Shown piece by piece: positions 39,642-52,417 of a stretch of DNA of 64,000 nucleotides (position 1 is its first letter; each line of letters opens with the position of its first letter). The position numbers and the translations under genes are program-made. Below the pieces are notes generated by a model. The model was given only the letters and a program-made list of their open reading frames with translations, was not told where the DNA came from and did no database searches. The stretch lies in assembly GCF_001183985.1 (NCBI RefSeq), contig NZ_LFZW01000001.1:1023812-1087811 (forward strand), in the 5' to 3' direction. The DNA comes from Peribacillus loiseleuriae (GTDB lineage: Bacteria > Bacillota > Bacilli > Bacillales > DSM-1321).

Positions 39642-40499
39642 TTACTGAACAGTGATGATGCCGCTAGATACTTGAAGATTCACTGGATGTTTACCAGAGC
39701 CATACGTTCCTTCCATATTCTTATGTGATGACGATGCGTTTTTTAATTGAAAACTATTGTTAATGACTCCACTACTTACTTTTCCATGAAGCGTAAAGTT
39801 CGCATCTTCTGGTAAATCTAAGTTGACGGAACCTGAACGAACTGTAACATCAGCTGAAGCGGTTAGCTCATCAAGCTGAATGTTAAACAAGCCAGATGAA
39901 ACCTCGGCTTGTAGTTCACCGATGTAATGCTTAACAACCATTCTGCCAGAACTCAACTGAAAGTCTCCAGAATCCGTTTTAACAGAGTTCATTTCAAAAT
40001 TTCCTGATGAAACAACAGAAGTAAAGGTATCTACGTTCAGATTGGAGAAATCCACATGACCTGACCCAGTATGGATTGAAAGATCTTTAAGTTCCATTGG
40101 ACGATTCTTCGAGACACCAGCAAATTTCAAGCTGCCAGACGACACGGAAATATCCATGCTTTTATTGTAATCTTCAGGAATATAAATAGTGATTTTAGGG
40201 GAATTGAAAAAACCAATTTGCTCAAACCATTTACGCTTGTATTCAATCATTATTTTATTCCCTATTTGCTCCACATTGACAGAACCCTGGCCACTTAATT
40301 CTGCTTTTATATCGGACCTTTTTTCGGGAACGACCTTTGCTTCAACGCTTGAAATATGAAATTCAAGTGTATCTATTCCTTTGGTTACCTTAGTATGATT
40401 CGATTTCCCATGAGCAAAAAGCGAGGGAATCGAATTGGATATCGTAAATAATAAGCCAATCCCAATAATAACAAGAAAAATCATTAGATAATTTTTCAC
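39642..40499 (-). CDS. DUF4097 beta-strand repeat protein with N-terminal anchor
   Basis: 285 aa. An N-terminal hydrophobic segment (LMIFLVIIGIGLLFTISNS) anchors or exports it. The rest is a ladder of short strands separated by repeated SSG/GSG turns (SVSSGSLKF, HTGSGHVDF, VSSGNFEM, LSSGRMVV, VSSGLFNI, VRSGSVNL, VSSGVINN, VSSGIITV), giving a parallel beta-helix or sheet. Such proteins (LiaG-like) are linked to envelope stress. The GTG start at 40499 is 6 nt after GGAGGG. Confidence 0.88.
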   Translation of the reverse strand: MKNYLMIFLVIIGIGLLFTISNSIPSLFAHGKSNHTKVTKGIDTLEFHISSVEAKVVPEKRSDIKAELSGQGSVNVEQIGNKIMIEYKRKWFEQIGFFNSPKITIYIPEDYNKSMDISVSSGSLKFAGVSKNRPMELKDLSIHTGSGHVDFSNLNVDTFTSVVSSGNFEMNSVKTDSGDFQLSSGRMVVKHYIGELQAEVSSGLFNIQLDELTASADVTVRSGSVNLDLPEDANFTLHGKVSSGVINNSFQLKNASSSHKNMEGTYGSGKHPVNLQVSSGIITVQ

Positions 40500-40880: not shown

Positions 40881-42230
40881 TTAATTTTTATTTCCATTAC
40901 TACTTGCTTCACTAAGTGTAAGTGATTTAGTTTCAGGAGCCCAAGCGATTGATACAATTGCTCCAATAATAAGGACAGCTGTGAGACATAGCATTGTATA
41001 TTGAATCCCTATACTAGCAATCCCGATTGGAAGCAAGAACGTACCAATTGCTGAACCTAACCTACTTACAGCTGTTGCAAGTCCAACGCCAGAAGAGCGA
41101 ATTTCAGTTGGAAAGCTCTCGGCTGGAAATACACCAACCAAGTTGCTGACAGCAGACATGATCAAGGTGAAGATGGCAAAAGAAAGTATCATTAATGTTG
41201 TTGCACTGATAGGTAGAATACTGAGAAGAGCGAGCGTAATGATTAATACGATAAAAGAGCTGATCAAAAATCCGCGACGAGAATATTTTACCGTAAACCA
41301 AATACCTAAAACGGCACCTATGATGAGAATCCCGTTTAATAGAAGATCTGTTCCAGATCCTTCGCTCATTCCGATCGCATCAAGAATGTTTGGCAAGAAC
41401 GTGTAAATAGCAAAGTAAGGGATAACAAGACAAACAAAGAATATACAATTGAAGGCAGTTCGTTTTCTTATCTCTTTACTGAATAAGGTTGAAAAGCTTC
41501 CCTTAGTTTGTACCGGCGATTCATCATCAAGTACTATATTCGGTCCGACATATTTCTTGACAATTTCTCGAGCCTCTTCAATCCGTCCTTTACTAATCAA
41601 CCATCTAGGTGACTCTGGTGTACCCATTCGCAAAATCAAAATAATAACAGCGGGAATCGCTGATGAAGCTAACATCCATTTCCATGCGTCTGGAGAGGTG
41701 CCGATGGCAAAAATGCCGATCAAGTTTGCTGCTACATAACCAAAAGTCCATATTACACTGAATGAACCTAATAATACTCCTCGATGTTTTCGTGGTGAAA
41801 ATTCGGCTAACATTGTGTGACCTACGCTATAATCGCCGCCAAGTCCAATCCCTATCAAAATTCTGTATAATACAAGTTCTATGGGGCTATCTGCGAAAAA
41901 CTGTAAAATGGATGCAACGGTAATGACGATAAAACTAAAGACAAATATTTTTTGCCTTCCTACATAATCGGATATCCAACCTAAAACCAAACTGCCTAAA
42001 AAAAGACCTATTAAAGCGGAGCTTCCAATTAAGCCAATCCAAAGTGGCGTTAAACCCATTTGGGGTGTCATTAGGGTAAGGGCAAATCCGATAATACCTA
42101 AAATATATCCATCAGTGAAATGAGCCCCGAACGTAAGACCTGCTATTTTAATATGGAATTTGTTCAGTGGTGCATCATCTAATTTAATTGTATTACCAGT
42201 ATCTTTAAGTGCTACGTTTTGGTTTGCCAT
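40881..42230 (-). CDS. MFS symporter, sugar/aromatic acid type
   Basis: 449 aa with about 12 membrane helices. MFS signature GWISDYVGRQKIFVFSFIVI after helix 2 and YRILIGIGLGGDYSVGHTML in helix 4, as in the aromatic acid:H+ and metabolite:H+ symporters; the second-half loop RRGFLISSF matches. Probably a proton-coupled importer of an organic acid. ATG at 42230 follows GGGGGAGA. It is transcribed away from the IclR regulator and carries an imperfect copy of the IclR-linked operator plus a cre-like site upstream, so it is likely the importer for the lyase operon at 43535. Confidence 0.85.
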   Translation of the reverse strand: MANQNVALKDTGNTIKLDDAPLNKFHIKIAGLTFGAHFTDGYILGIIGFALTLMTPQMGLTPLWIGLIGSSALIGLFLGSLVLGWISDYVGRQKIFVFSFIVITVASILQFFADSPIELVLYRILIGIGLGGDYSVGHTMLAEFSPRKHRGVLLGSFSVIWTFGYVAANLIGIFAIGTSPDAWKWMLASSAIPAVIILILRMGTPESPRWLISKGRIEEAREIVKKYVGPNIVLDDESPVQTKGSFSTLFSKEIRKRTAFNCIFFVCLVIPYFAIYTFLPNILDAIGMSEGSGTDLLLNGILIIGAVLGIWFTVKYSRRGFLISSFIVLIITLALLSILPISATTLMILSFAIFTLIMSAVSNLVGVFPAESFPTEIRSSGVGLATAVSRLGSAIGTFLLPIGIASIGIQYTMLCLTAVLIIGAIVSIAWAPETKSLTLSEASSNGNKN

Positions 42231-42299
42231 TGAATCTCCCCCTGTTTAATCTATAAATTTGTTAATAGATTAAAAGTCATGTATGAAACCATTTATAGA

Positions 42300-42313
42300 G
42301 GAAAACGTTTTCA
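42300..42313. promoter_or_regulatory. cre-like site (CcpA) upstream of the MFS symporter
   Basis: GGAAAACGTTTTCA agrees with the catabolite-responsive element consensus TGWNANCGNTNWCA at every fixed position except the first. It lies 70 bp before the start codon, downstream of the likely promoter. Inferred from motif only. Confidence 0.5.
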
Positions 42314-42334
42314 TTTATAAGAAAAATAAAAAAT

Positions 42335-42349
42335 GCTCACTATACGAAC
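42335..42349. promoter_or_regulatory. Third IclR-type operator copy (imperfect)
   Basis: Its reverse complement GTTCGTATAGTGAGC matches 11 of 15 positions of the operator GTTCGTAATATGAAC at 43432. On the minus strand it contains TATAGT, a possible -10 box for the MFS gene. Confidence 0.45.
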
Positions 42350-42445
42350 TTTTTGTCCATTATTTGAATATATTTGAATTATAATCTTGTGTCTTTTCTT
42401 TGTCAATTAATTCATAGACTTATTTAAAAAAAGAACAGTAGATGT

Positions 42446-42504
42446 AAAAAAAGAAGGAGGTCATCGTTTACTGATAGTAAATGATGACCTCCTTCTTTTT
42501 TTGT
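42446..42504 (-). terminator. Strong terminator of the iclR-type gene
   Basis: AAAAAAAGAAGGAGGTCATC and GATGACCTCCTTCTTTTTTT form an almost perfect stem of more than 20 bp, directly after the IclR-type stop codon. Confidence 0.85.
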
Positions 42505-42508
42505 TGGA

Positions 42509-43303
42509 TTACTCTATCTGTTCTTCGATTTTTTTTGCGGCATCTAGCATTCGATCGCTTGATAGTAAAAGATCTTCTTTTGTAAGGCGGAAACTCGGCC
42601 CACCCAGCGTAATAAATGCGACTAAATCTTTTTTCTTGTTAAAGATAGGTGCTGAAATCGCATTTTCATTTTCATCTAGTTCGCCAATCGATATTCCAAC
42701 CTTTTGAACACGAATTTTTTCTAGTTCTTTACGCAGTTCTTCTGGATCGGTAATTGAATATTTGGATAGTGGTTCAAGGGGCTGCTCTAATAAAATATCC
42801 AACTCCTTTTGAGGCAGCAAACTTAATAAAATTTTCCCGTTAGATGTGCAGTGTAAAGGTGAAATAGTGTGAGTATAGTCAACTAGTCTAACACTATGAT
42901 CAGTATCTATTTGATCAATAGTAAGAGTTCCATCATGCTTAGGAACACTAAGTAGAACAGTTTCGCCCATTTCTTCTTTTAATTTTAATAGCGTGTTGCG
43001 AGCTCTTCGTATGAGATAACCATATGAATCGTTTTTTGAAGTTAATTGATGAAGAGCATACCCGAGCTGATACCCTTTAGAAAAAGGATCCTTTTCTACA
43101 AACCCTTGATTTTCAAGGGTTCCAATCAAACGCCAGGCTGTAGTCCGGTTCAGCGCAGCCTGTTTAGCCAGATCACCGACCGAAATGGATGATGGATTTT
43201 CTCCAATAAGCTTCAAAAGCAATAAAGCGCGTTCAACGGCTTGTACAGAAGAACCTTCTTTATTAAAGGGGTGTTTTGATTTAATTTGATTATTATTTTC
43301 CAT
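42509..43303 (-). CDS. IclR-family transcriptional regulator
   Basis: 264 aa. Winged helix-turn-helix at residues about 17-80 (VQAVERALLLLKLI, SVGDLAKQAALNRTTAWRLI) and an IclR effector-binding domain with HCTSNGKILLSLLP and GISIGELDENENAISAPIF. IclR proteins usually control aromatic or organic acid catabolism. It is divergent from the lyase operon and co-directional with the MFS symporter. ATG at 43303 lacks a clear ribosome-binding site; TATAAT (43310-43315, minus strand) ends only 6 nt upstream of it, which would fit a leaderless transcript. Confidence 0.9.
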   Translation of the reverse strand: MENNNQIKSKHPFNKEGSSVQAVERALLLLKLIGENPSSISVGDLAKQAALNRTTAWRLIGTLENQGFVEKDPFSKGYQLGYALHQLTSKNDSYGYLIRRARNTLLKLKEEMGETVLLSVPKHDGTLTIDQIDTDHSVRLVDYTHTISPLHCTSNGKILLSLLPQKELDILLEQPLEPLSKYSITDPEELRKELEKIRVQKVGISIGELDENENAISAPIFNKKKDLVAFITLGGPSFRLTKEDLLLSSDRMLDAAKKIEEQIE

Positions 43304-43374
43304 CTTTTCATTATAGCTTAAGACAATGGAAGATTGCTAATCAATTCATTCTGATCAAAAAAATGATTAAATTA

Positions 43375-43403
43375 TTGACTGATTAATTAATTGGGTATAT
43401 TAT
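43375..43403 (+). promoter_or_regulatory. SigA promoter of the lyase operon
   Basis: TTGACT (43375-43380), 17-nt spacer, TATATT (43398-43403). Transcription should begin near 43410, just before two operator copies. Confidence 0.65.
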
Positions 43404-43411
43404 AAATTTGT

Positions 43412-43426
43412 GTTCTCGATATGAAC
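43412..43426. promoter_or_regulatory. Operator copy 1
   Basis: GTTCTCGATATGAAC, an inverted repeat GTTC-N7-GAAC, at the expected start of transcription. Confidence 0.6.
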
Positions 43427-43431
43427 TTATT

Positions 43432-43446
43432 GTTCGTAATATGAAC
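43432..43446. promoter_or_regulatory. Operator copy 2
   Basis: GTTCGTAATATGAAC, the same GTTC-N7-GAAC repeat, 20 bp (about two helical turns) from copy 1. Likely bound cooperatively by the divergent IclR protein. Confidence 0.6.
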
Positions 43447-43534
43447 AAAAGAAAGCGTCATCTTTATAGAATAGAGGCTATATGGATTGCATCGCTTTTT
43501 GGAATAAAAAAGTTTTGGAGGAGGGATATCAATC

Positions 43535-44896
43535 ATTTGGGCTGATGAGGTTGAAAAACGGACAGAGAGAGATTACTTCGGCAAAGTGGATATTCCAAAA
43601 GATGCTTTATATGGCATTCAAACAATGAGAACGGTGCAAAATCTATCTTTCTCTGGTCAACTATTAAAAAATTATCCAGAATATATTGTGTCATTAGCTA
43701 TGGTTAAAAAAGCTGCAACGTTAGCTAATCAGGAGGCGGGTATTCTACCCCCTTCAATTGGAACCGCTATCTTAAATGCTTGTGATCAAATAATTCAAGG
43801 GAACTATCATGACCACTTCATTGTTGATATTTTTCATGGAGGCGGTGGGATTGGTACGAATATGAATGTAAATGAAGTGTTAGCCAATTTGGCTAATGAA
43901 TCTCTAGAAGGTACCTTAGGTGTTTATACGCCAGTTCATCCTGTAGAGCATGTAAACGCTTCCCAATCCACCTCGGATGTATGCCATACATCTATACGTT
44001 TAGCGATTGTGCGGTGTTTTGAACGGTTGGACCATAAGTTAACAAAAATGCATGCTACGATAGAAAAAAAATCACAAGAGTTTATGAGCGTAACCACAAT
44101 CTCCCGGACTTGTTTACAGGATGCAATGCGCATTAGGTTAGGGGATGCTTTCAGTGGGTATGCATCTGTACTGAAAAGGCGCCATATTTCTTTAAGAGAA
44201 TCCGTTATGTCGTTACTTACTATTAACCTTGGAGCGACAGTTATTGGGAATGGTGTAGGGGCTTCAGAAAAATATAAAGAAGTGGTTATCGAGAAACTGC
44301 GTGATGTATCGAATATGGATGTTTCAAAACGTGACAATTTATTTGATGCAGCGCAAAACATTGATGATTTAGCTCATATGTCAAAGGAATTGAGTTTATT
44401 AGCAACATCACTAATCAAAGTCGCCAAAGATTTAAGACTACTTTCATCGGGACCCGAAGCAGGATTTGCAGAAATTACTTTGCCATCGGTTCAGGCAGGT
44501 TCCTCCTTTTTTCCAGGAAAAGTGAATCCAGTCATCCCTGAAACGATGATTCAAAGCTGTTTTCAAGTCCTCGGGTGTGATCGAATTGTTCAAGCTGCCT
44601 TGGAACATGGTGAACTTGACTTAAATATTTTTGAAGGAATGGCAGGCGCCAATATATTGAATGGGTTATACATGCTTACGAATACTTCTCATTCCTTTAC
44701 AGAGTTATGTCTAAAGGACATAGCACCTAATGAAGAAAGATGTACAGAACTTTCAAATACATTTATTCCAGTTATTGTGGAATTGAAAGAACAAATGGGT
44801 TATTCAGCAGTTTCCAAATTAATAAAAGAACATGATCGTAAATCTATAAAATACTTACTAAATAATGGAGGTATAGACCATGATACAAGAAACTAA
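43535..44896 (+). CDS. Aspartase/fumarase-superfamily lyase 1, divergent active site
   Basis: About 453 aa with this start. The family signature is present as GSSFFPGKVNP (aspartase: GSSIMPGKVNP), so the catalytic serine, Lys and Asn of the loop are kept, but Met becomes Phe. Other substrate residues differ: GGGGIGTNMN replaces GAGTSxNMN (Thr to Ile), QSTSDV replaces QSTNDV, and RTCLQDA replaces RT(H/Q)LQDA. It is therefore probably not a plain aspartase. The homologous N-terminus (RTERDYFGKVDIPKDALYGI) needs a start before the GTG at 43586, yet only ATC 43532 or ATT 43535 follow the strong GGAGGAGGG at 43517; I use 43535. GTG 43586 is the conservative alternative. Confidence 0.82.
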   Translation: MWADEVEKRTERDYFGKVDIPKDALYGIQTMRTVQNLSFSGQLLKNYPEYIVSLAMVKKAATLANQEAGILPPSIGTAILNACDQIIQGNYHDHFIVDIFHGGGGIGTNMNVNEVLANLANESLEGTLGVYTPVHPVEHVNASQSTSDVCHTSIRLAIVRCFERLDHKLTKMHATIEKKSQEFMSVTTISRTCLQDAMRIRLGDAFSGYASVLKRRHISLRESVMSLLTINLGATVIGNGVGASEKYKEVVIEKLRDVSNMDVSKRDNLFDAAQNIDDLAHMSKELSLLATSLIKVAKDLRLLSSGPEAGFAEITLPSVQAGSSFFPGKVNPVIPETMIQSCFQVLGCDRIVQAALEHGELDLNIFEGMAGANILNGLYMLTNTSHSFTELCLKDIAPNEERCTELSNTFIPVIVELKEQMGYSAVSKLIKEHDRKSIKYLLNNGGIDHDTRN

Positions 44897-46400
44897 ACAG
44901 TTTGAAGGAATTGAGCAGCCAAAACTAGAGTGGGCTCATGAATGGCTTAAAACAACGAAAAAGCTTTATATCAATGGAGAATGGGTGGATAGCTCAGGAG
45001 AAAAAGTGATTGAATCGATCAATCCAGCCAATGGAGAAGTTTTAGGTGATTTTCAATCTGCTGAAATGCAAGATGTAGATGCAGCTATTCAAGGAGCAAG
45101 AATCGCTCTAGAACAAGGTTCATGGAAAGAGATGAGCCGTAAGGATAGAGGAAAAGTTTTACGGAAAATCAGTGCACTTATTCATGAGCATCATGCGGAG
45201 CTTGCAACATTGGAAGCGCTTGATAACGGTAAATTATATACAGAAGCGTACAATGATGATGTGCAAGAAGCAGCGGACTTATTTGAATATTACGCGGGAT
45301 GGACAGATAAATATTATGGTGAAAACAATCCTGTAGAAGGTAATTTCTTAAGTGTCACAACGAGAGATCCAATCGGTGTATGCGGACAAATTGTGCCATT
45401 TAATTTTCCAATTCAAATGGCTGTCTTAAAACTATCTCCTGCCTTATCGATGGGGAATACGGTTGTGTTAAAACCAGCTGATAAAACCTCTTACTCTGTT
45501 ATTCGATTGTTTGAAATTATTGATGAAGCAGGAGTTTTGCCAAAGGGTGTTATTAATTTAGTCCTTGGTGATGGTGAGGTAGGTTCTTATATTAGTAGGC
45601 ATATGGGTATTGATAAACTATCGTTTACAGGTAGTACACATATTGGGAAACAATTAATCCATGACTCAGCTAATAGCAATTTAAAACCAGTAACTTTAGA
45701 ACTTGGTGGTAAATCGCCTAACATTATTTTTAGTGATTTTCCGGATTTAGATGCAGCGATTGAACGCTCATTTTTTGCATTATTTACACATAAGGCTGAA
45801 AAATGTTCTGCTCCGACCCGGTTATTTGCACAACGTGACATTTATGATGAAGTGGTAGAAAAAATCGCTGAGTATGCTAAAAACTACAAATGTGGTGATC
45901 CATTTGATCCAGCAAGTGATCAAGGTGCACAAGTGTCCAAGCAGCATATGGAATCCATTTTAAATTACATTGAGAGTGGTAAAGAACAAGGGGCACGAGT
46001 AGTAGCTGGAGGGGAACGAGATACAACTGGAACAAATGCTAATGGCTATTTTGTTCGACCAACTATTTTTGCTGAAGTTGATAATAAAATGAAAATTGCT
46101 CAGGAAGAGATTTTCGGACCTGTACTCTGCATCATCCCATTTGATACAGAAGAAGAAGTTATTCAAATGGCAAATGATACGATTTATGGTCTTGGAGCAG
46201 GGTTATGGACAGGCAACACTTCCCGTGCTCATCGCGTAGCTAATCAGCTTAACGCCGGTATGGTTTTCGTTAATAGATATGGATGTTATGACTTTGCTAG
46301 TCCATTTGGAGGCATGAAGCAAAGTGGATGGGGTAAAGAATATGCCGTTCATTCATTACAAGCATTTACAAAATCAAAAGCTATTTGGTTCGCGTACTAA
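44880..46400 (+). CDS. NAD(P)-dependent aldehyde dehydrogenase
   Basis: 506 aa. Oxyanion Asn in IVPFNFPIQ (residue 175), glycine motif FTGSTHIGK, catalytic Glu in LELGGKSPN (Glu274), catalytic Cys309 in HKAEKCSAPTR. The segment around the cysteine is unusual, since most family members have GQxC. ATG at 44880 follows GGAGG inside the end of lyase 1, giving a 17-nt overlap and translational coupling. It should oxidise the aldehyde made by the downstream alcohol dehydrogenase. Confidence 0.92.
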   Translation: MIQETKQFEGIEQPKLEWAHEWLKTTKKLYINGEWVDSSGEKVIESINPANGEVLGDFQSAEMQDVDAAIQGARIALEQGSWKEMSRKDRGKVLRKISALIHEHHAELATLEALDNGKLYTEAYNDDVQEAADLFEYYAGWTDKYYGENNPVEGNFLSVTTRDPIGVCGQIVPFNFPIQMAVLKLSPALSMGNTVVLKPADKTSYSVIRLFEIIDEAGVLPKGVINLVLGDGEVGSYISRHMGIDKLSFTGSTHIGKQLIHDSANSNLKPVTLELGGKSPNIIFSDFPDLDAAIERSFFALFTHKAEKCSAPTRLFAQRDIYDEVVEKIAEYAKNYKCGDPFDPASDQGAQVSKQHMESILNYIESGKEQGARVVAGGERDTTGTNANGYFVRPTIFAEVDNKMKIAQEEIFGPVLCIIPFDTEEEVIQMANDTIYGLGAGLWTGNTSRAHRVANQLNAGMVFVNRYGCYDFASPFGGMKQSGWGKEYAVHSLQAFTKSKAIWFAY

Positions 46401-46430
46401 AAAAATTTACTTAAAAGAGGGGATCATACA

Positions 46431-47546
46431 ATGAAAATAAAAGCGGCTGTTATGACTGAAGTAGGTAAACCATTATCCATTCAACAAGTAGAACTTAGTG
46501 AACCAAAATCGAATGAAGTTCTTGTGAAAATAAAAGCAACTGGTGTTTGCCATAGCGATTTAAATGCATTACATGATCAAACGACGCCAACACCGACTAT
46601 TCTTGGGCATGAAGGTTCAGGAATTGTTGAAGCAGTTGGCTCAAATGTTACAAGAGTCAAAGTTGGTGACAAAGTAGCTTTGAGCTGGGTCCCGTATTGC
46701 GGAACGTGTGAATTTTGTATAACAGGAGCCGTGCATTTGTGTGAGTCTGCATTTGGTCCAATGTTTGAAGGGACACTACTTGATGGCACTTCAAGACTAA
46801 GCCAAGATGGAAAACAAATATACCATAACTCTCTATTATCTACTTTTGCAGAATTTGCGGTTGTTCCGGAGATGTCATGTGTAAAGTTGCCGGATGAAAT
46901 GCCTTTGGCACAAGCTTCCTTAATCGGATGCGGGGTAGCAACAGGGTATGGAGCCGCTGTGAACGCAGCTGGTGTTACACCGGGATCTACAGTTGCCGTC
47001 TTCGGTATTGGTGGAGTAGGCGTAAATGCGATTCAAGGAGCTTATATTGCCGGTGCTTCTAAAATTATTGCTTGTGATGTAAAACCTGCTAATTTGGAGA
47101 TTGCCAAACAGTTTGGCGCAACGCATACGATCAATTCAGCTGAAGTTGATGTAGAAGAAGCGCTAAAAGAACTGACAAATGGTTTAGGTGTTCATTTTGC
47201 TATTGATTGTTCGGGGCATACTGCAGCGGCAGAAAGTGCTTGGAAGAGTACAAGAAAAGGTGGTACTGTCGTTCTCGTTGGTGCCTTTAATCCTGAACAA
47301 ACATTAAATATTCCTGCGGGAGGATTCCATAGAGTTGGAAAAGTTTTAAAAGGAAGTTTTTATGGAGATACGCAGCCATTCCGTGATTTTCCTATGATTG
47401 CACAAATGTATTTAGATGGGAAATTCAAATTAGATGAACTTGTGTTAAATCGCATTGAGTTAAATGATATTAATCAAGCTTTTGACTCTTTCCATGACTG
47501 CGGGTGTATCAATGTAGGGCGAGCGGTTATTGAATTTAAGGATTAA
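46431..47546 (+). CDS. Zinc-dependent alcohol dehydrogenase (MDR family)
   Basis: 371 aa. Catalytic zinc ligands in GVCHSDLNAL and GHEGSG; structural zinc cysteines in CGTCEFCITGAVHLC (about residues 91-105); cofactor motif GIGGVGVNAIQGA. The layout follows class III-type/benzyl alcohol dehydrogenases. ATG at 46431 follows AGAGGGG, 30 nt after the aldehyde dehydrogenase. Expected reaction: primary alcohol to aldehyde with NAD; the substrate is unknown. Confidence 0.92.
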   Translation: MKIKAAVMTEVGKPLSIQQVELSEPKSNEVLVKIKATGVCHSDLNALHDQTTPTPTILGHEGSGIVEAVGSNVTRVKVGDKVALSWVPYCGTCEFCITGAVHLCESAFGPMFEGTLLDGTSRLSQDGKQIYHNSLLSTFAEFAVVPEMSCVKLPDEMPLAQASLIGCGVATGYGAAVNAAGVTPGSTVAVFGIGGVGVNAIQGAYIAGASKIIACDVKPANLEIAKQFGATHTINSAEVDVEEALKELTNGLGVHFAIDCSGHTAAAESAWKSTRKGGTVVLVGAFNPEQTLNIPAGGFHRVGKVLKGSFYGDTQPFRDFPMIAQMYLDGKFKLDELVLNRIELNDINQAFDSFHDCGCINVGRAVIEFKD

Positions 47547-47572
47547 TTGCTAAGCTAAATTTCATTAAAGTG

Positions 47573-47623
47573 AAGGGTGTTAAAAATTGTAATCATTAAT
47601 CAATTTAAACACCCTTTTTTTTC
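47573..47623 (+). terminator. Terminator/attenuator between ADH and lyase 2
   Basis: AAGGGTGTTAAAAATTG / CAATTTAAACACCCTT long stem and eight T, only 26 nt before lyase 2. No separate promoter is obvious before lyase 2, so lyase 2 may depend on read-through. Confidence 0.8.
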
Positions 47624-47648
47624 CAATAGAAAGTAAGGGGTAGTGAAA

Positions 47649-49073
47649 ATGCGATTAGAAAAAGATTTAATTGGAGAATTGGAAATTGATGAAGAGGTTT
47701 ATTACGGAATACAAACGGTTCGGGCCTGTCAGAATTTCTCCATTTCTGGTCGGACGGTAGAATTATATCCCCACTTAATAAGAAGTATGGCATTTATTAA
47801 AAAAGCAGCGGCAATGTCTAATCACAGTGTCGGTGTTCTTGAGCAAGAGAAAAAAAACGTCATTTGTCAAGCTGCAGATGAAATAATAGATGGAAAAATG
47901 ACAAATCAATTTCCTGTAGACATTTATCAAGGTGGCGGTGGAGTTTCCATTAATATGAATGTCAATGAAGTGATCGCTAATCGGGCTAATGAACTACTGA
48001 CAGGTCAAAAAGGATATGATTGCATACATCCGAATGAACATGTAAATATGTCCCAATCAACGAATGATGTACTTCCAAGTGCAATGAAAATGGCTTGTTT
48101 TTTCTATATAGAAGATTTATTAATTAGTTTAAATAAAATCGAATTCTCATTGGCAGATAAAGTTGATGGATTTTCCAGTATTGTGAAAATAGCAAGAACT
48201 TGCCTCCAAGATGCTGTACCTATTACACTTGGTCAACAATTTAGCGGGTATCATTCTTTTATCAAAAGACAAGTAGAAGACATAAAGAATCTTCAAAAAG
48301 AATGCTTGTCTATTATCGTTGGTGCAACAGCAGTTGGAACAGGTATCGGAGCTGCTCCTGGATATACAGAAAAGATGTACGAATATTTGCCAGAGGTATC
48401 CAACGTATCGGTCTACAAAGAGGAGAATTTCTTTGATGGCATGCAAAATGCCGATATTTATTTAAAAATCTCTGCTCACTTAAAAGGGTTATCGAGTGGA
48501 TTATCTAAATTATCCAGCGATTTGAGATTACTTTCATCAGGTCCAAGAGCGGGCTTTGCTGAAATCAATTTGCCTGCGGTACAGCCTGGTTCTTCCATTA
48601 TGCCAGGAAAAATCAATCCATGTATACCTGAAATGATGATGCAAGTTTGTTTTGATGTATATGGAAATGATCAAGCGATTACATTTGCTGTAGATCGAGG
48701 TGAACTGGATCTGAACATCTGGGAACCGATTATTTTGAAAAATTTATTTGAATCTTTTTCTATCTTAACGAATGGAATTAGGTTGTTTACTGAAAAATGC
48801 CTAGATGGTATTGAAGTTAATAAAAAAATTTGTTTCAATCATGCTGAAAAATCGTTATCTTTATCTGTCGTTATTTCTTCTCTATTCGGGTACCAAGTTG
48901 CGAACGAGGTAGCTTTAGAAGCACATGAAAAAAACTCAACCATTAAAGAAGTAGTCGTTGAAAAAGGACTTTTAAAGGAAGAGGAAGCATCGAAGTTACT
49001 AAATCCTGAAAACTTAACGGATTCTGTAAAAATGCATCATTTGTTAAATTTAAAAACTCATTATAATGGCTAA
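47649..49073 (+). CDS. Aspartase/fumarase-superfamily lyase 2, divergent active site
   Basis: 474 aa. Canonical loop GSSIMPGKINP (about residues 314-324) and MSQSTNDV are kept. Two substrate-site differences are shared with lyase 1: GGGGVSINMN (Thr to Val, near residue 99) and RTCLQDA (His/Gln to Cys, near residue 185). The N-terminus MRLEKDLIGELEIDEEVYYG matches aspartases. ATG at 47649 is best spaced from AAGGGG. It probably works on the same or a related substrate as lyase 1; the two may form a mixed tetramer. Plain aspartate ammonia-lyase remains possible. Confidence 0.88.
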   Translation: MRLEKDLIGELEIDEEVYYGIQTVRACQNFSISGRTVELYPHLIRSMAFIKKAAAMSNHSVGVLEQEKKNVICQAADEIIDGKMTNQFPVDIYQGGGGVSINMNVNEVIANRANELLTGQKGYDCIHPNEHVNMSQSTNDVLPSAMKMACFFYIEDLLISLNKIEFSLADKVDGFSSIVKIARTCLQDAVPITLGQQFSGYHSFIKRQVEDIKNLQKECLSIIVGATAVGTGIGAAPGYTEKMYEYLPEVSNVSVYKEENFFDGMQNADIYLKISAHLKGLSSGLSKLSSDLRLLSSGPRAGFAEINLPAVQPGSSIMPGKINPCIPEMMMQVCFDVYGNDQAITFAVDRGELDLNIWEPIILKNLFESFSILTNGIRLFTEKCLDGIEVNKKICFNHAEKSLSLSVVISSLFGYQVANEVALEAHEKNSTIKEVVVEKGLLKEEEASKLLNPENLTDSVKMHHLLNLKTHYNG

Positions 49074-49132
49074 ATAAAGTAGAGCCTTAAATTAGTTTGA
49101 TGCTGTTTTGCTTAAAAGTACGTTTGACATTG

Positions 49133-49166
49133 AAACGGTCAAAATATTATTTTGTCCGTTTTTTTG
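49133..49166 (+). terminator. Terminator after lyase 2
   Basis: AAACGGTCAAAAT / ATTTTGTCCGTTT stem and T-run. A TTGACA (49124-49129) just upstream could serve as a -35 box for the malic enzyme, with TATTAT inside the hairpin. Confidence 0.7.
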
Positions 49167-49228
49167 TTCAAATGTTCAGTCTATAGACTTAAAAGGAAAG
49201 AAAATTCACACGTTAGGAGTGATAGGAT

Positions 49229-50476
49229 ATGTCAAATTTACGAGAAAAAGCTCTAAACATGCACAAAGAAAAGAAAGGAAAACTAGGTGTTTGTTTAAAG
49301 GTTCCAGTACGTAATGCAAAAGATTTAAGTCTTGCATATTCTCCCGGTGTAGCGGAGCCTTGCTTGGAAATTCATAAAGATGAGAGAAAAGTGTACGATT
49401 ATACAATGAAAGGAAATCTTGTGGCTGTTGTATCAAATGGAACAGCTGTGTTAGGACTCGGAAATATTGGTCCCAAAGCAGCCATGCCAGTTATGGAAGG
49501 AAAAGCAGCGTTATTCAAAATCTTTGCAGACGTAGATGCATTCCCAATTTGCTTGGAAACAAAGGATCCAGACAAAATTGTGGAAACGGTCCAATTATTA
49601 GAGCCGACCTTTGGTGGAGTGAACCTTGAAGACATTGCGGCCCCACAGTGTTTTGAGATAGAAGAACGCTTAAAGAAAATATGTCAAATCCCTATTTTTC
49701 ATGATGACCAGCATGGGACAGCCATTGTAACAGCTGCTGGGTTAATAAATGCTTTGAAACTTGCAGACAAAAAAATAGAAGAAATCCGTGTAGTGGGCAA
49801 CGGTGCTGGGGCAGCGGGTGTAGCAATTGTGAAGCTCTTACATCATATGGGAGTAAAAGATATTATCTTATGCGATACAAAAGGGATCATTTATGAAGGG
49901 CGACCATTCGGAATGAATCCAATCAAAGAAAAAATTGCGCAGATCACCAACATAGAGAAAAAACAGGGCATATTGGAAGACGCTCTTAAGGGAGCCGATG
50001 TGTTCGTTGGAGTATCCGCTGCTGGGGCGGTGACAGAAGAAATGGTTCGTTCCATGAATCGTGATCCTATTATATTTGCGATGGCTAACCCCACGCCTGA
50101 AATTATGCCAGATTGTGCAAAAGCTGCTGGAGCATTGGTCGTAGGTACAGGGCGTTCGGATTTCCCTAATCAGGTGAACAACGTACTCGCATTCCCTGGT
50201 ATTTTCCGGGGTGCTTTAGATGTACGAGCTAAGGAAATTAATGAAGAAATGAAACTGGCAGCAGTTTTTGCAATCGCTGACTTAATAGAGGTTGATGATC
50301 TTCATCCTGATTATGTAATTCCTGATCCATTTGATCGCAGAGTGGCTGCCCATGTAGCGGTAGCTGTTGCAAACGCTGCAATGGAAACGGGTGTTGCGCA
50401 AAAAAATATAGATGTAGCTGAAATTAAAAAACGCCTATTAGCCTTAACGGAAGAAAAACAAAATGTCTTTGTATAA
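49229..50476 (+). CDS. NAD(P)-dependent malic enzyme
   Basis: 415 aa, oxidative decarboxylation of malate to pyruvate and CO2. Signature residues: YSPGVAEPCLEI, VSNGTAVLGLGNIGP (cofactor domain), metal ligands in IFHDDQHGTAIV, and VGNGAGAAGVAIV. Length is close to YtsJ of B. subtilis (about 410). ATG at 49229 follows GGAGTGATAGG. If the lyases release fumarate, housekeeping fumarase would supply malate to this enzyme. Confidence 0.93.
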   Translation: MSNLREKALNMHKEKKGKLGVCLKVPVRNAKDLSLAYSPGVAEPCLEIHKDERKVYDYTMKGNLVAVVSNGTAVLGLGNIGPKAAMPVMEGKAALFKIFADVDAFPICLETKDPDKIVETVQLLEPTFGGVNLEDIAAPQCFEIEERLKKICQIPIFHDDQHGTAIVTAAGLINALKLADKKIEEIRVVGNGAGAAGVAIVKLLHHMGVKDIILCDTKGIIYEGRPFGMNPIKEKIAQITNIEKKQGILEDALKGADVFVGVSAAGAVTEEMVRSMNRDPIIFAMANPTPEIMPDCAKAAGALVVGTGRSDFPNQVNNVLAFPGIFRGALDVRAKEINEEMKLAAVFAIADLIEVDDLHPDYVIPDPFDRRVAAHVAVAVANAAMETGVAQKNIDVAEIKKRLLALTEEKQNVFV

Positions 50477-51161: not shown

Positions 51162-52295
51162 TTACGCATTAATGTTTTCATCTTTTAACGCCGTTTCAAC
51201 GTGTATATACTTAAAGCCAAGGTCTTTAGCGACGGCCTCAAAGGTAATTTCACCGTTTGCGACGTTTACTCCTTTTGCAAGTGCTTCGTTTTCAAGAATG
51301 GCTGTCACAGCACCTTTATTGGCAATTTGTAGCGCGTACGGTATTGTCACATTTGTTAAAGCAAGAGTTGATGTATTTGGGACAGCTCCAGGCATGTTTG
51401 CGACGGCATAATGGACTACTCCATGCTTTACATATGTCGGTTGATCGTGAGTGGTAATCTTGGTAACAGTTTCAAAAATCCCACCTTGGTCAACAGCAAC
51501 ATCAATGACAACAGAGCCAGGCGACATCGATTTTACCATTTCTTCTGTCACAAGCTTAGGAGCCTTTGCCCCAGGAATCAATACGGCACCAATGACTAAA
51601 TCAGATTCAGATACAGCTTGTGCCACATTATATGGGTTAGAAATTAATGTAGAAATTTGATTTCCGAAGATATCGTCTAATTGGCGAAGACGGTCTGGGC
51701 TAAGATCGATAATCGTGACAATTGCTCCTAAACCGATGGCTACTTTTGCTGCATTTGTACCGACAACACCGCCGCCTATAATTGTTACTTTTCCGCGTTT
51801 TACACCTGGAACCCCACTTAATAAGATTCCTTTCCCACCATGAGTTTTTTCAAGGAATTGAGCGCCTATTTGTGCAGCCATTCTACCAGCTACCTCACTC
51901 ATTGGCGTCAATAATGGAAGCGTGTTACTCACGGATACCGTTTCATAGGCAATGGCTAGGACACCATTATCTTTAAGTGCTTTTGTTAACTCAGGATCTG
52001 CAGCTAAGTGAAGGTATGTGAAAAGAATTAAATCCTTACGGAAATATTGATATTCTGAAGCAATGGGTTCTTTTACCTTAAGAATCATTTCAGCTGTGGT
52101 CCAAATGTCTGCGGCTACTTCGGCAATAACGGCTCCGGCAGCCAAATACGATTCATCTGAAAAGCTGCTTCCTAGACCCGCGTTTTTTTCAACATATACT
52201 TCATGACCAGCGTTACGTAAAGCGACAACACCAGCGGGAGTAATGGCGACACGATTTTCATTGTTTTTTATTTCCTTAGGAATTCCAATTCGCAT
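51162..52295 (-). CDS. ald: Alanine dehydrogenase
   Basis: 377 aa (378 in B. subtilis). Reversibly deaminates L-alanine to pyruvate and ammonia with NAD. N-terminal [20 protein letters not shown], catalytic His/Asp region [12 protein letters not shown], cofactor motif [14 protein letters not shown] (about residues 172-185). ATG at 52295 follows GGAGCGA; an extension to 52340 lacks a binding site. It is convergent with the malic enzyme, and both meet at pyruvate. Confidence 0.95.
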
Positions 52296-52417
52296 AATCA
52301 ATTCGCTCCATTTCAAAAGAAAATTACTCTTTGTACACAAAGTATAACTGTATCAGAAAAAATATGATATGTGAAATCAGAAAATTCTAAAATGAATTTT
52401 GCGGAATTCGACAAACA

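Follow-up and report, generated by a model that had tools for sequence, protein, structure and literature searches.

A conserved lyase–aldehyde dehydrogenase–alcohol dehydrogenase core in Bacilli as a candidate catabolic unit for homoserine betaine

Introduction

Ergothionase and choline trimethylamine-lyase (CutC), the latter a glycyl-radical enzyme, both release trimethylamine from a quaternary amine. Ergothionase resembles histidine/phenylalanine ammonia-lyases and not aspartase (PMC13405746). Here, we analyze a locus of Peribacillus loiseleuriae (contig NZ_LFZW01000001.1, positions 1,023,812 to 1,087,811; this stretch of 64,000 nucleotides is called the window) in which a lyase of the aspartase superfamily, LY1, is encoded together with an aldehyde dehydrogenase (ALDH) and an alcohol dehydrogenase (ADH). 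With moderate confidence, and judging from gene content and residues, we propose that the core LY1–ALDH–ADH serves to break down a quaternary-ammonium compound, with homoserine betaine (N,N,N-trimethylhomoserine) as the most likely candidate, and that trimethylamine and fumarate would be the products. LY1 would then represent a third, unrelated kind of trimethylamine-lyase beside ergothionase and CutC.

The active site of aspartase is assembled from three subunits; T101 contacts the amine, and S140, T141, and S319 hold the beta-carboxylate. In the aspartase AspB of Bacillus sp. YM55-1 (1j3u/3r6v), the serine of the SS-loop is the base, T187, M321, K324, and N326 form the alpha-carboxylate pocket, His188 and Asn142 contact amine and carboxylate alike, and activity on monocarboxylates required the replacement of alpha-carboxylate pocket residues (PMC11744663). 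The proposed substrate, homoserine betaine, occurs in nature as an osmolyte (PMC5864184, PMC13403184, PMC6753628) and forms the head group of the lipid diacylglyceryl-N,N,N-trimethylhomoserine (DGTS; PMC9892843). Its bacterial degradation appears to be undescribed so far: the accessible parts of the literature searched, with subscription literature outside coverage, held no description of the breakdown of homoserine betaine or trimethylaspartate, and the terms aspartate betaine, trimethylaspartate, and aspartic acid betaine were unmentioned in the accessible parts of the literature matched on subject.

The genes in question are the following.

40881..42230, minus strand: major facilitator superfamily (MFS) transporter, uptake in this variant; Pfam Sugar_tr and MFS_1
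42509..43303, minus strand: IclR-family regulator; closest NCBIfam model BhcR, below its cut-off
43532..44896, plus strand: LY1, aspartase-superfamily lyase; proposed N,N,N-trimethylaspartate (aspartate betaine) trimethylamine-lyase
44880..46400, plus strand: ALDH, betaine-aldehyde-dehydrogenase-like (family models, motifs); proposed trimethylaspartate-semialdehyde dehydrogenase
46431..47546, plus strand: zinc ADH, class III/NDMA-type (family models, zinc-ligand motifs); proposed homoserine-betaine dehydrogenase
47643..49073, plus strand: LY2, second aspartase-superfamily lyase (V/I101, C188, N142 kept); accessory

Results and Discussion

The gene core is conserved in Bacilli

Our set of LY1 loci in Bacilli comprised 20 members, from 18 whole genomes and two plasmids (Priestia megaterium pMLY91_2 and Peribacillus pA), and LY1, ALDH, and ADH are contiguous in 19 of them. 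The exception is plasmid pA of Peribacillus sp. R9-11, where LY1 is fused in frame to a BCCT transporter. This fusion, at L040:13953-16523, is a single open reading frame (ORF) of 856 residues, of which approximately 400 belong to LY1 and which continues into the BCCT, while ALDH and ADH are missing; it is probably a deletion scar, possibly a real enzyme–carrier fusion.

How widespread LY1 is was assessed in draws of genomes at the level of family, order, class, and phylum, which overlap in part. At an identity of at least 85%, the family draw has it in 5 of its 43 genomes, one of them that of the window, and all five share the arrangement MFS-IclR/LY1-ALDH-ADH-LY2, a recurrence beyond chance; the gene order, which an earlier note on this DNA had itself singled out as decisive for its claims, is thus not specific to this strain. 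The order-wide draw contained LY1 in 11 of 397 genomes (E <= 1e-105), the class draw in 5 of 398, with the window's genome among them, and the phylum draw in 1 of 398, the window's own (both E <= 1e-115).

The earlier note had regarded two lyases as the essence of the system. What stands of this is the core; LY2 is found in only 7 of the 20 loci, MFS and IclR are adjacent in 8 of 20, and these three genes are parts of one variant only. Among 299 genomes of the order, LY2 was detected in two at E <= 1e-150, a cut-off that misses more distant LY2, and both also have LY1; a confinement of LY2 to LY1 genomes is only suggestive, as the loci had been gathered via LY1. Neither malic enzyme nor alanine dehydrogenase is conserved as a neighbor: malic enzyme is adjacent in 2 of 5 loci of the family draw (the window and one of four relatives of the same genus), and no alanine dehydrogenase was found within 19-19.5 kb around the cluster in these four relatives.

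LY1 has a divergent active site

LY1 and LY2 both score above the cut-off of Pfam Lyase_1, and both have the GSS-loop with the base serine that marks the aspartase/fumarase superfamily (S318, S319, K324, and N326 in 20/20 LY1 and 7/7 LY2; AspB served as alignment reference and gives the numbering, and the Peribacillus fusion was trimmed to 440 residues for the residue table). The PDB and NCBIfam matches of LY1 are of the aspartase/fumarase type, and the relatedness to the HAL/PAL/TAL ammonia-lyases that is expected of an ergothionase was not found. Nevertheless, neither lyase reaches the cut-off of the aspartate ammonia-lyase equivalog TIGR00839 (411 bits for LY1 and 538 for LY2 versus 681) or of class II fumarate hydratase TIGR00979 (344 and 470 versus 665), and the aspartate ammonia-lyase subfamily NF008909 (cut-off 510) includes LY2 with 599.6 bits but not LY1 with 475.

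In full-length alignment, LY1 shares with AspB the fold family, the base serine of the SS-loop, and T187, K324, and N326, whereas T101, N142, H188, I320, and M321 are all replaced. All 20 LY1 have I101, S142 (18) or A142 (2), C188, F320, and F321, i.e., the changes T101I, N142S/A, H188C, I320F, and M321F, and all 20 retain S140, T141, T187, S318, S319, K324, and N326, which includes three of the four alpha-carboxylate residues (T187, K324, and N326). In LY2, only T101 and H188 of these positions are replaced, with V or I101, N142, C188, I320, and M321 in 7/7. Neither lyase therefore has the pair of amine-contacting residues, Asn142 and His188, of aspartate ammonia-lyase, and the view of the earlier note that the two lyases are divergent is borne out by active sites unlike those of aspartase and fumarase. 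Among 52 other family members, T101 and N142 are each present in 51, and M321, K324, and N326 in all; the odd row at positions 101, 142, and 188 is Marinomonas each time. Judged by these residues, the amine side of LY1 has turned apolar and partly aromatic, while the base and most carboxylate contacts stay, as would be expected if trimethylammonium replaces ammonium.

For comparison, we used 80 control loci, kept of 587 from a genome scan with the motifs NMN[VI]NEV[ILV] and GSSFFPGK, which are mostly ordinary aspartases and fumarases. In a tree of 79 rows, which took every second control locus (40/80) and left out the Lyase_1 members of the own genome (L003, L005, L007, and L008), LY1 and LY2 each form one clade (100/99 each), and a branch (100/98) has LY1, LY2, and Marinomonas on one side, apart from the other 51 rows. 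A simple aspartase duplication was dropped as an explanation, given the fixed divergent active-site set of LY1 and the cut-offs that it fails.

Betaine carriers accompany LY1

In 11 of the 20 loci, a BCCT transporter (PF02028) and/or an OpuAC-type binding protein (PF04069) takes the place of the MFS transporter, in one case along with a ProV/OsmF-type ABC system; the remaining locus, which belongs neither to this nor to the MFS/IclR type, lies at a contig edge. In the whole genomes, a BCCT or OpuAC gene lies within approximately 10 kb of LY1 in 10 of 18 cases, compared with 0.65 expected from the genomes' own gene counts (Poisson-binomial P ~5e-11, with genomes treated as independent although three share one genus), and these ten genomes span 8 families. 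Near the control loci, a betaine carrier was detected in only 2 of 80 cases (tblastn), one of which is the LY1 relative of Marinomonas communis (L068); this control is rough, as it covers other taxa and shorter stretches (17 kb on average) and was evaluated by another detection method than the LY1 set.

A proposed pathway from homoserine betaine to trimethylamine and fumarate

The betaine carriers of the relatives and the changed amine pocket together argue for a quaternary amine as the leaving group, and they suggest that ADH and ALDH act on the same molecule before its cleavage. If trimethylamine leaves and a dicarboxylate is formed, the substrate of LY1 would be N,N,N-trimethylaspartate, and the task of ADH and ALDH would consequently be to turn the primary alcohol of homoserine betaine into the second carboxylate of trimethylaspartate. 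The best model of the ALDH is betaine aldehyde dehydrogenase (TIGR01804; 516 bits, below the cut-off of 669), while methylmalonate-semialdehyde dehydrogenase reaches 270 bits. We therefore propose that homoserine betaine would be imported by MFS in the window, or by BCCT/OpuAC systems at other loci, that ADH would convert its terminal CH2OH into the aldehyde and ALDH the aldehyde into N,N,N-trimethylaspartate, and that the SS-loop serine of LY1 would then take the proton beside the new carboxylate, whereupon trimethylamine would be eliminated and the resulting fumarate could enter the tricarboxylic acid cycle. LY2 would be accessory; as it keeps Asn142, it may perhaps accept less methylated aspartates that bear an N-H, i.e., the dimethyl or monomethyl forms. 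The enzymes come from known families, and the activity and the pathway are probably new; if the proposal is correct, it describes a new route to trimethylamine as well as enzymes of aspartase descent that accept bulky amines, which could be useful in hydroamination.

Proteobacterial relatives of LY1 were found in three organisms, Ensifer, Vibrio pelagius, and Marinomonas, and among 244 genomes of the order of Marinomonas, LY1 was detected at E <= 1e-115 only in Marinomonas itself. All three relatives have I101, A/S142, and C188, and keep T187, K324, and N326. The ALDH stays in all three, and the zinc ADH is swapped for an aldo/keto reductase (3/3). An alcohol-oxidizing step thus seems to be retained though the enzyme changes (ADH in 19/20 Bacilli loci), which is consistent with the same chemistry.

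Additional modules with a possible role in the use of the DGTS head

Some relatives carry further genes that could extend the pathway. Algae release glyceryl-homoserine-betaine, the deacylated DGTS head, from lyso-DGTS (PMC11711679), and alkylglycerol monooxygenase has been called the only known enzyme that cleaves the alkylglycerol ether bond (PMC7911779). What we call module B consists of a short-chain dehydrogenase/reductase (SDR), an FAD protein, and an FGGY kinase, and has LY1 as a near neighbor in G376, P. megaterium, and V. pelagius (G numbers denote genomes of our collection). Elsewhere, it stands alone in G403 and G346, and in G264 only the FAD protein was located. The FAD protein has the domains FAD_binding_4 and FAD-oxidase_C, its nearest solved structure is alkyl-dihydroxyacetonephosphate (alkyl-DHAP) synthase (AGPS) in 3/3 searched, and the HHH motif is present in 3/3 examined, which together fit the alkyl-DHAP synthase family. 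It differs from AGPS in being bacterial and shorter and in adjoining a kinase and transporters, and this neighborhood points to ether cleavage rather than synthesis. In the closest relative of the window, G017, a unit apart from LY1 (L162:1131-8521) comprises BCCT-FGGY-FAD-SDR and a 121-residue ADH fragment; its BCCT gene is 80% identical to that of G356.

Module C consists of an enolase-superfamily protein (MLE), a second aldehyde dehydrogenase (ALDH2), an iron-dependent alcohol dehydrogenase (Fe-ADH), and BCCT or ABC carriers, and it surrounds LY1-ALDH-ADH in G356, G145, G228, G861, and G1073; the Fe-ADH of G145 was judged by eye from its N-terminus, and the identity of ALDH2 to the G356 protein is only 40-41% in G861 and G1073. 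By eye, the enolase-superfamily protein keeps the expected metal and His residues. G041, from the genus of the window, has a stand-alone HK-RR-OpuAC/MLE-ALDH2-FeADH-BCCT unit (L165:6708-17154) without LY1-ALDH-ADH, which lie in a separate MFS/IclR unit of this genome. Modules B and C are present in 6 and 5 of 19 genomes with an overlap of 0, but since the chance probability of no overlap is 0.11, a mutual exclusion was not relied on.

It is possible, and we suggest this only tentatively, that relatives encode a complete breakdown of the DGTS head, with import by BCCT/OpuAC, opening of the ether by one of two unrelated modules, and the split by LY1, and that the window strain keeps the last stage only. 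In module B, the SDR would make a 2-ketone, the FGGY kinase would phosphorylate it, and the alkyl-DHAP-synthase-like protein would swap the ether for water to give DHAP. In module C, the glyceryl end would be oxidized to a glycerate ether, from which the enolase-superfamily enzyme would beta-eliminate the ether to give pyruvate. In either case, the freed homoserine betaine would be oxidized and then split by LY1, a trimethylamine-lyase that would have arisen within the aspartase superfamily. Candidate genes would thereby be named for each step in the breakdown of the DGTS head and of homoserine betaine, which forms the head group of this widespread membrane lipid.

Weighing the alternatives

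Several observations weigh against homoserine betaine as the substrate. Eight of the 20 loci, the window's included, use an MFS transporter of unassigned specificity and no betaine carrier; the window lacks a betaine carrier close to LY1, and the window's own genome has neither a BCCT nor the marker gene of either module, so that this strain would use homoserine betaine in its free form or a closely related compound. Module B is also found without LY1 (E. coli, Enterococcus, and Streptomyces have proteins closely matching its FAD protein) and is therefore not specific to this pathway. As to the active site, ordinary members are not uniform at position 188 (H 30, Q 15, E 6, and C 1 among the 52), the proteobacterial relatives lack F320/F321 and have A320 and I or M321 instead, and M321F touches the alpha-carboxylate pocket, which Asn142 and His188 also line; the changes in LY1 could thus reflect a different alpha-substituent and not a different amine. 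The pathway, finally, does not account for LY2.

Bacterial ddd clusters for dimethylsulfoniopropionate (DMSP) combine a BCCT carrier with ADH and ALDH genes, a likeness to the LY1 loci, and BCCT and OpuAC carriers are able to import DMSP-like solutes. LY1 or LY2 could hence serve the catabolism of DMSP or beta-alanine betaine, where dimethylsulfide or trimethylamine would be eliminated and the resulting acrylate hydrated to 3-hydroxypropionate by a lyase or another enzyme; ADH and ALDH would suit the onward path from 3-hydroxypropionate to malonate semialdehyde and beyond. In Marinomonas communis, a DddP-like M24 protein, of a DMSP lyase family, adjoins a BCCT gene (L068:14157-17225), both convergent with the LY1-like, ALDH, and LysR genes, and in Ensifer, a gene with a DMSP-lyase family annotation is located approximately 13 kb from the LY1-like gene; both findings also speak against our proposal. 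However, LY1 of the Bacilli and all three relatives keep T187, K324, and N326 and thus the dicarboxylate pocket, whereas the use of acrylate required their replacement (PMC11744663), and the ALDH scores far lower with the methylmalonate-semialdehyde family than with betaine aldehyde dehydrogenase. In the Bacilli loci with listed ORFs, no DMSP-lyase-type gene was recognized beside LY1, though no dedicated search was made. We regard this alternative as unlikely. Similarly unlikely is another quaternary-ammonium substrate, of the carnitine or choline type or another N-quaternary amino acid, from which LY1 would eliminate water or another group: the association with transporters names no substrate by itself, and the choline dehydrogenase model GbsB is the closest one for the Fe-ADH of the BCCT-type loci, albeit with a score below its cut-off, but the retained alpha-carboxylate residues favor a dicarboxylate, which carnitine and choline do not yield via ADH and ALDH in an obvious way. 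A dehydration of carnitine by LY1 was dropped.

The earlier note had proposed that the cleavage of an N- or O-substituted succinate comes first, with fumarate flowing to pyruvate and the freed amino-alcohol being oxidized by ADH and ALDH. The substituted dicarboxylate that gives fumarate is still the best reading, and two aspartase-like lyases in one unit with ADH and ALDH are compatible with the whole scheme; yet malic enzyme is not a conserved neighbor, and the betaine carriers and the lost polar amine contacts fit a quaternary leaving group and not an amino-alcohol, which makes the split-first order very unlikely and led us to drop N-(hydroxyalkyl)aspartate as a substrate. Least probable of all are ordinary aspartase or fumarase paralogues in a general island for acid utilization. 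Both lyases are superfamily members, and LY2 scores above the cut-off of the broad subfamily, but LY1 fails the aspartase and fumarase cut-offs alike, its active-site set is fixed and differs from that of 51 of the 52 other members (the remaining one is an LY1 relative), and LY1 and LY2 each form a supported clade. Homoserine betaine therefore remains the substrate that we favor.

Start codon, regulation, and neighboring genes

The genes listed above, malic enzyme, and alanine dehydrogenase are all full ORFs in the ORF list, and their families were confirmed with NCBIfam and Pfam. The listed ORF of LY1 begins with GTG at 43586, but its homology to aspartase starts further upstream, and the frame is open from 43508. 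Where the homology begins, there is no ATG, GTG, or TTG in the window or in four relatives of the same genus (L042, L043, L044, and L045). Instead, a strong ribosome-binding site, GGAGGAGGG, lies 5' of ATC/ATT at 43532-43535, where LY1 probably starts with AUC or AUU. AGGAGG is followed by ATC in the window, L042, and L043, and by ATA in L044 and L045, which suggests a conserved rare AUH start codon, as likewise used by infC. With this start, the overlap of LY1 with ALDH is 17 nt; the gaps that follow are 30 nt (ALDH-ADH), 96 nt (ADH-LY2), and 155 nt (LY2-malic enzyme, the latter on the plus strand 3' of LY2). The remaining features are as follows.

42335..42349, plus strand: possible weak IclR-type operator before MFS, one mismatch (motif scan)
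42378..42406, minus strand: promoter-like TTGACA-17-TATAAT (12/12) before MFS; consensus match only
43375..43403, plus strand: promoter-like TTGACT-17-TATTAT before LY1; consensus match only
43412..43446, no strand: tandem operators GTTC-N7-GAAC, 20 nt apart (exact motif, conservation)
47572..47623, plus strand: hairpin with T-run between ADH and LY2, possible terminator (RNA fold)
51162..52340, minus strand: alanine dehydrogenase, beyond the range 40881..50476 of the earlier note

The exact operators begin at 43412 and 43432, just 3' of the promoter-like element, and an exact operator is present in the IclR/LY1 gap of 8/8 loci of the MFS/IclR type (two sites in 6, one in 2). The IclR/MFS gap has one in 6/8; the window has only the one-mismatch site at 42335, and with one mismatch allowed, the motif is not enriched in the whole window (23 found versus 20.6 expected). 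Promoter-like matches in the region are fewer than in shuffles. IclR may repress via the tandem operators just downstream of the promoter until an inducer comes. Together with the conserved gene set, these operators, which the earlier note had already recognized, uphold its view of a dedicated, co-regulated uptake and catabolic unit. RNA folding indicated hairpins with T-runs in the ADH-LY2 gap (z -3.31, 47560-47630) and the LY2-malic enzyme gap (z -3.66), neither of which was flagged by a simple consensus terminator scan; LY2 may therefore be transcribed separately or by read-through, and the operon probably does not extend to malic enzyme. The second hairpin, and the lack of conservation beside the cluster, argue against malic enzyme and alanine dehydrogenase as parts of the system, which the earlier note had included.

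The E. coli homologue of the module B FAD protein, with approximately 65% identity (H53-H55), is presumably YgcU, with ygcE and ygcW alongside; no functional description of these three was found in the literature searched, and the genes may mark an undescribed glyceryl-ether pathway. The best NCBIfam match of the MFS transporter is the aromatic acid/H+ symport subfamily, with 191 bits and below the cut-off of 418. Adjoining the cluster, but not part of it, is a gene for a LiaG-family protein (39642-40499; 284.7 bits versus a cut-off of 285).

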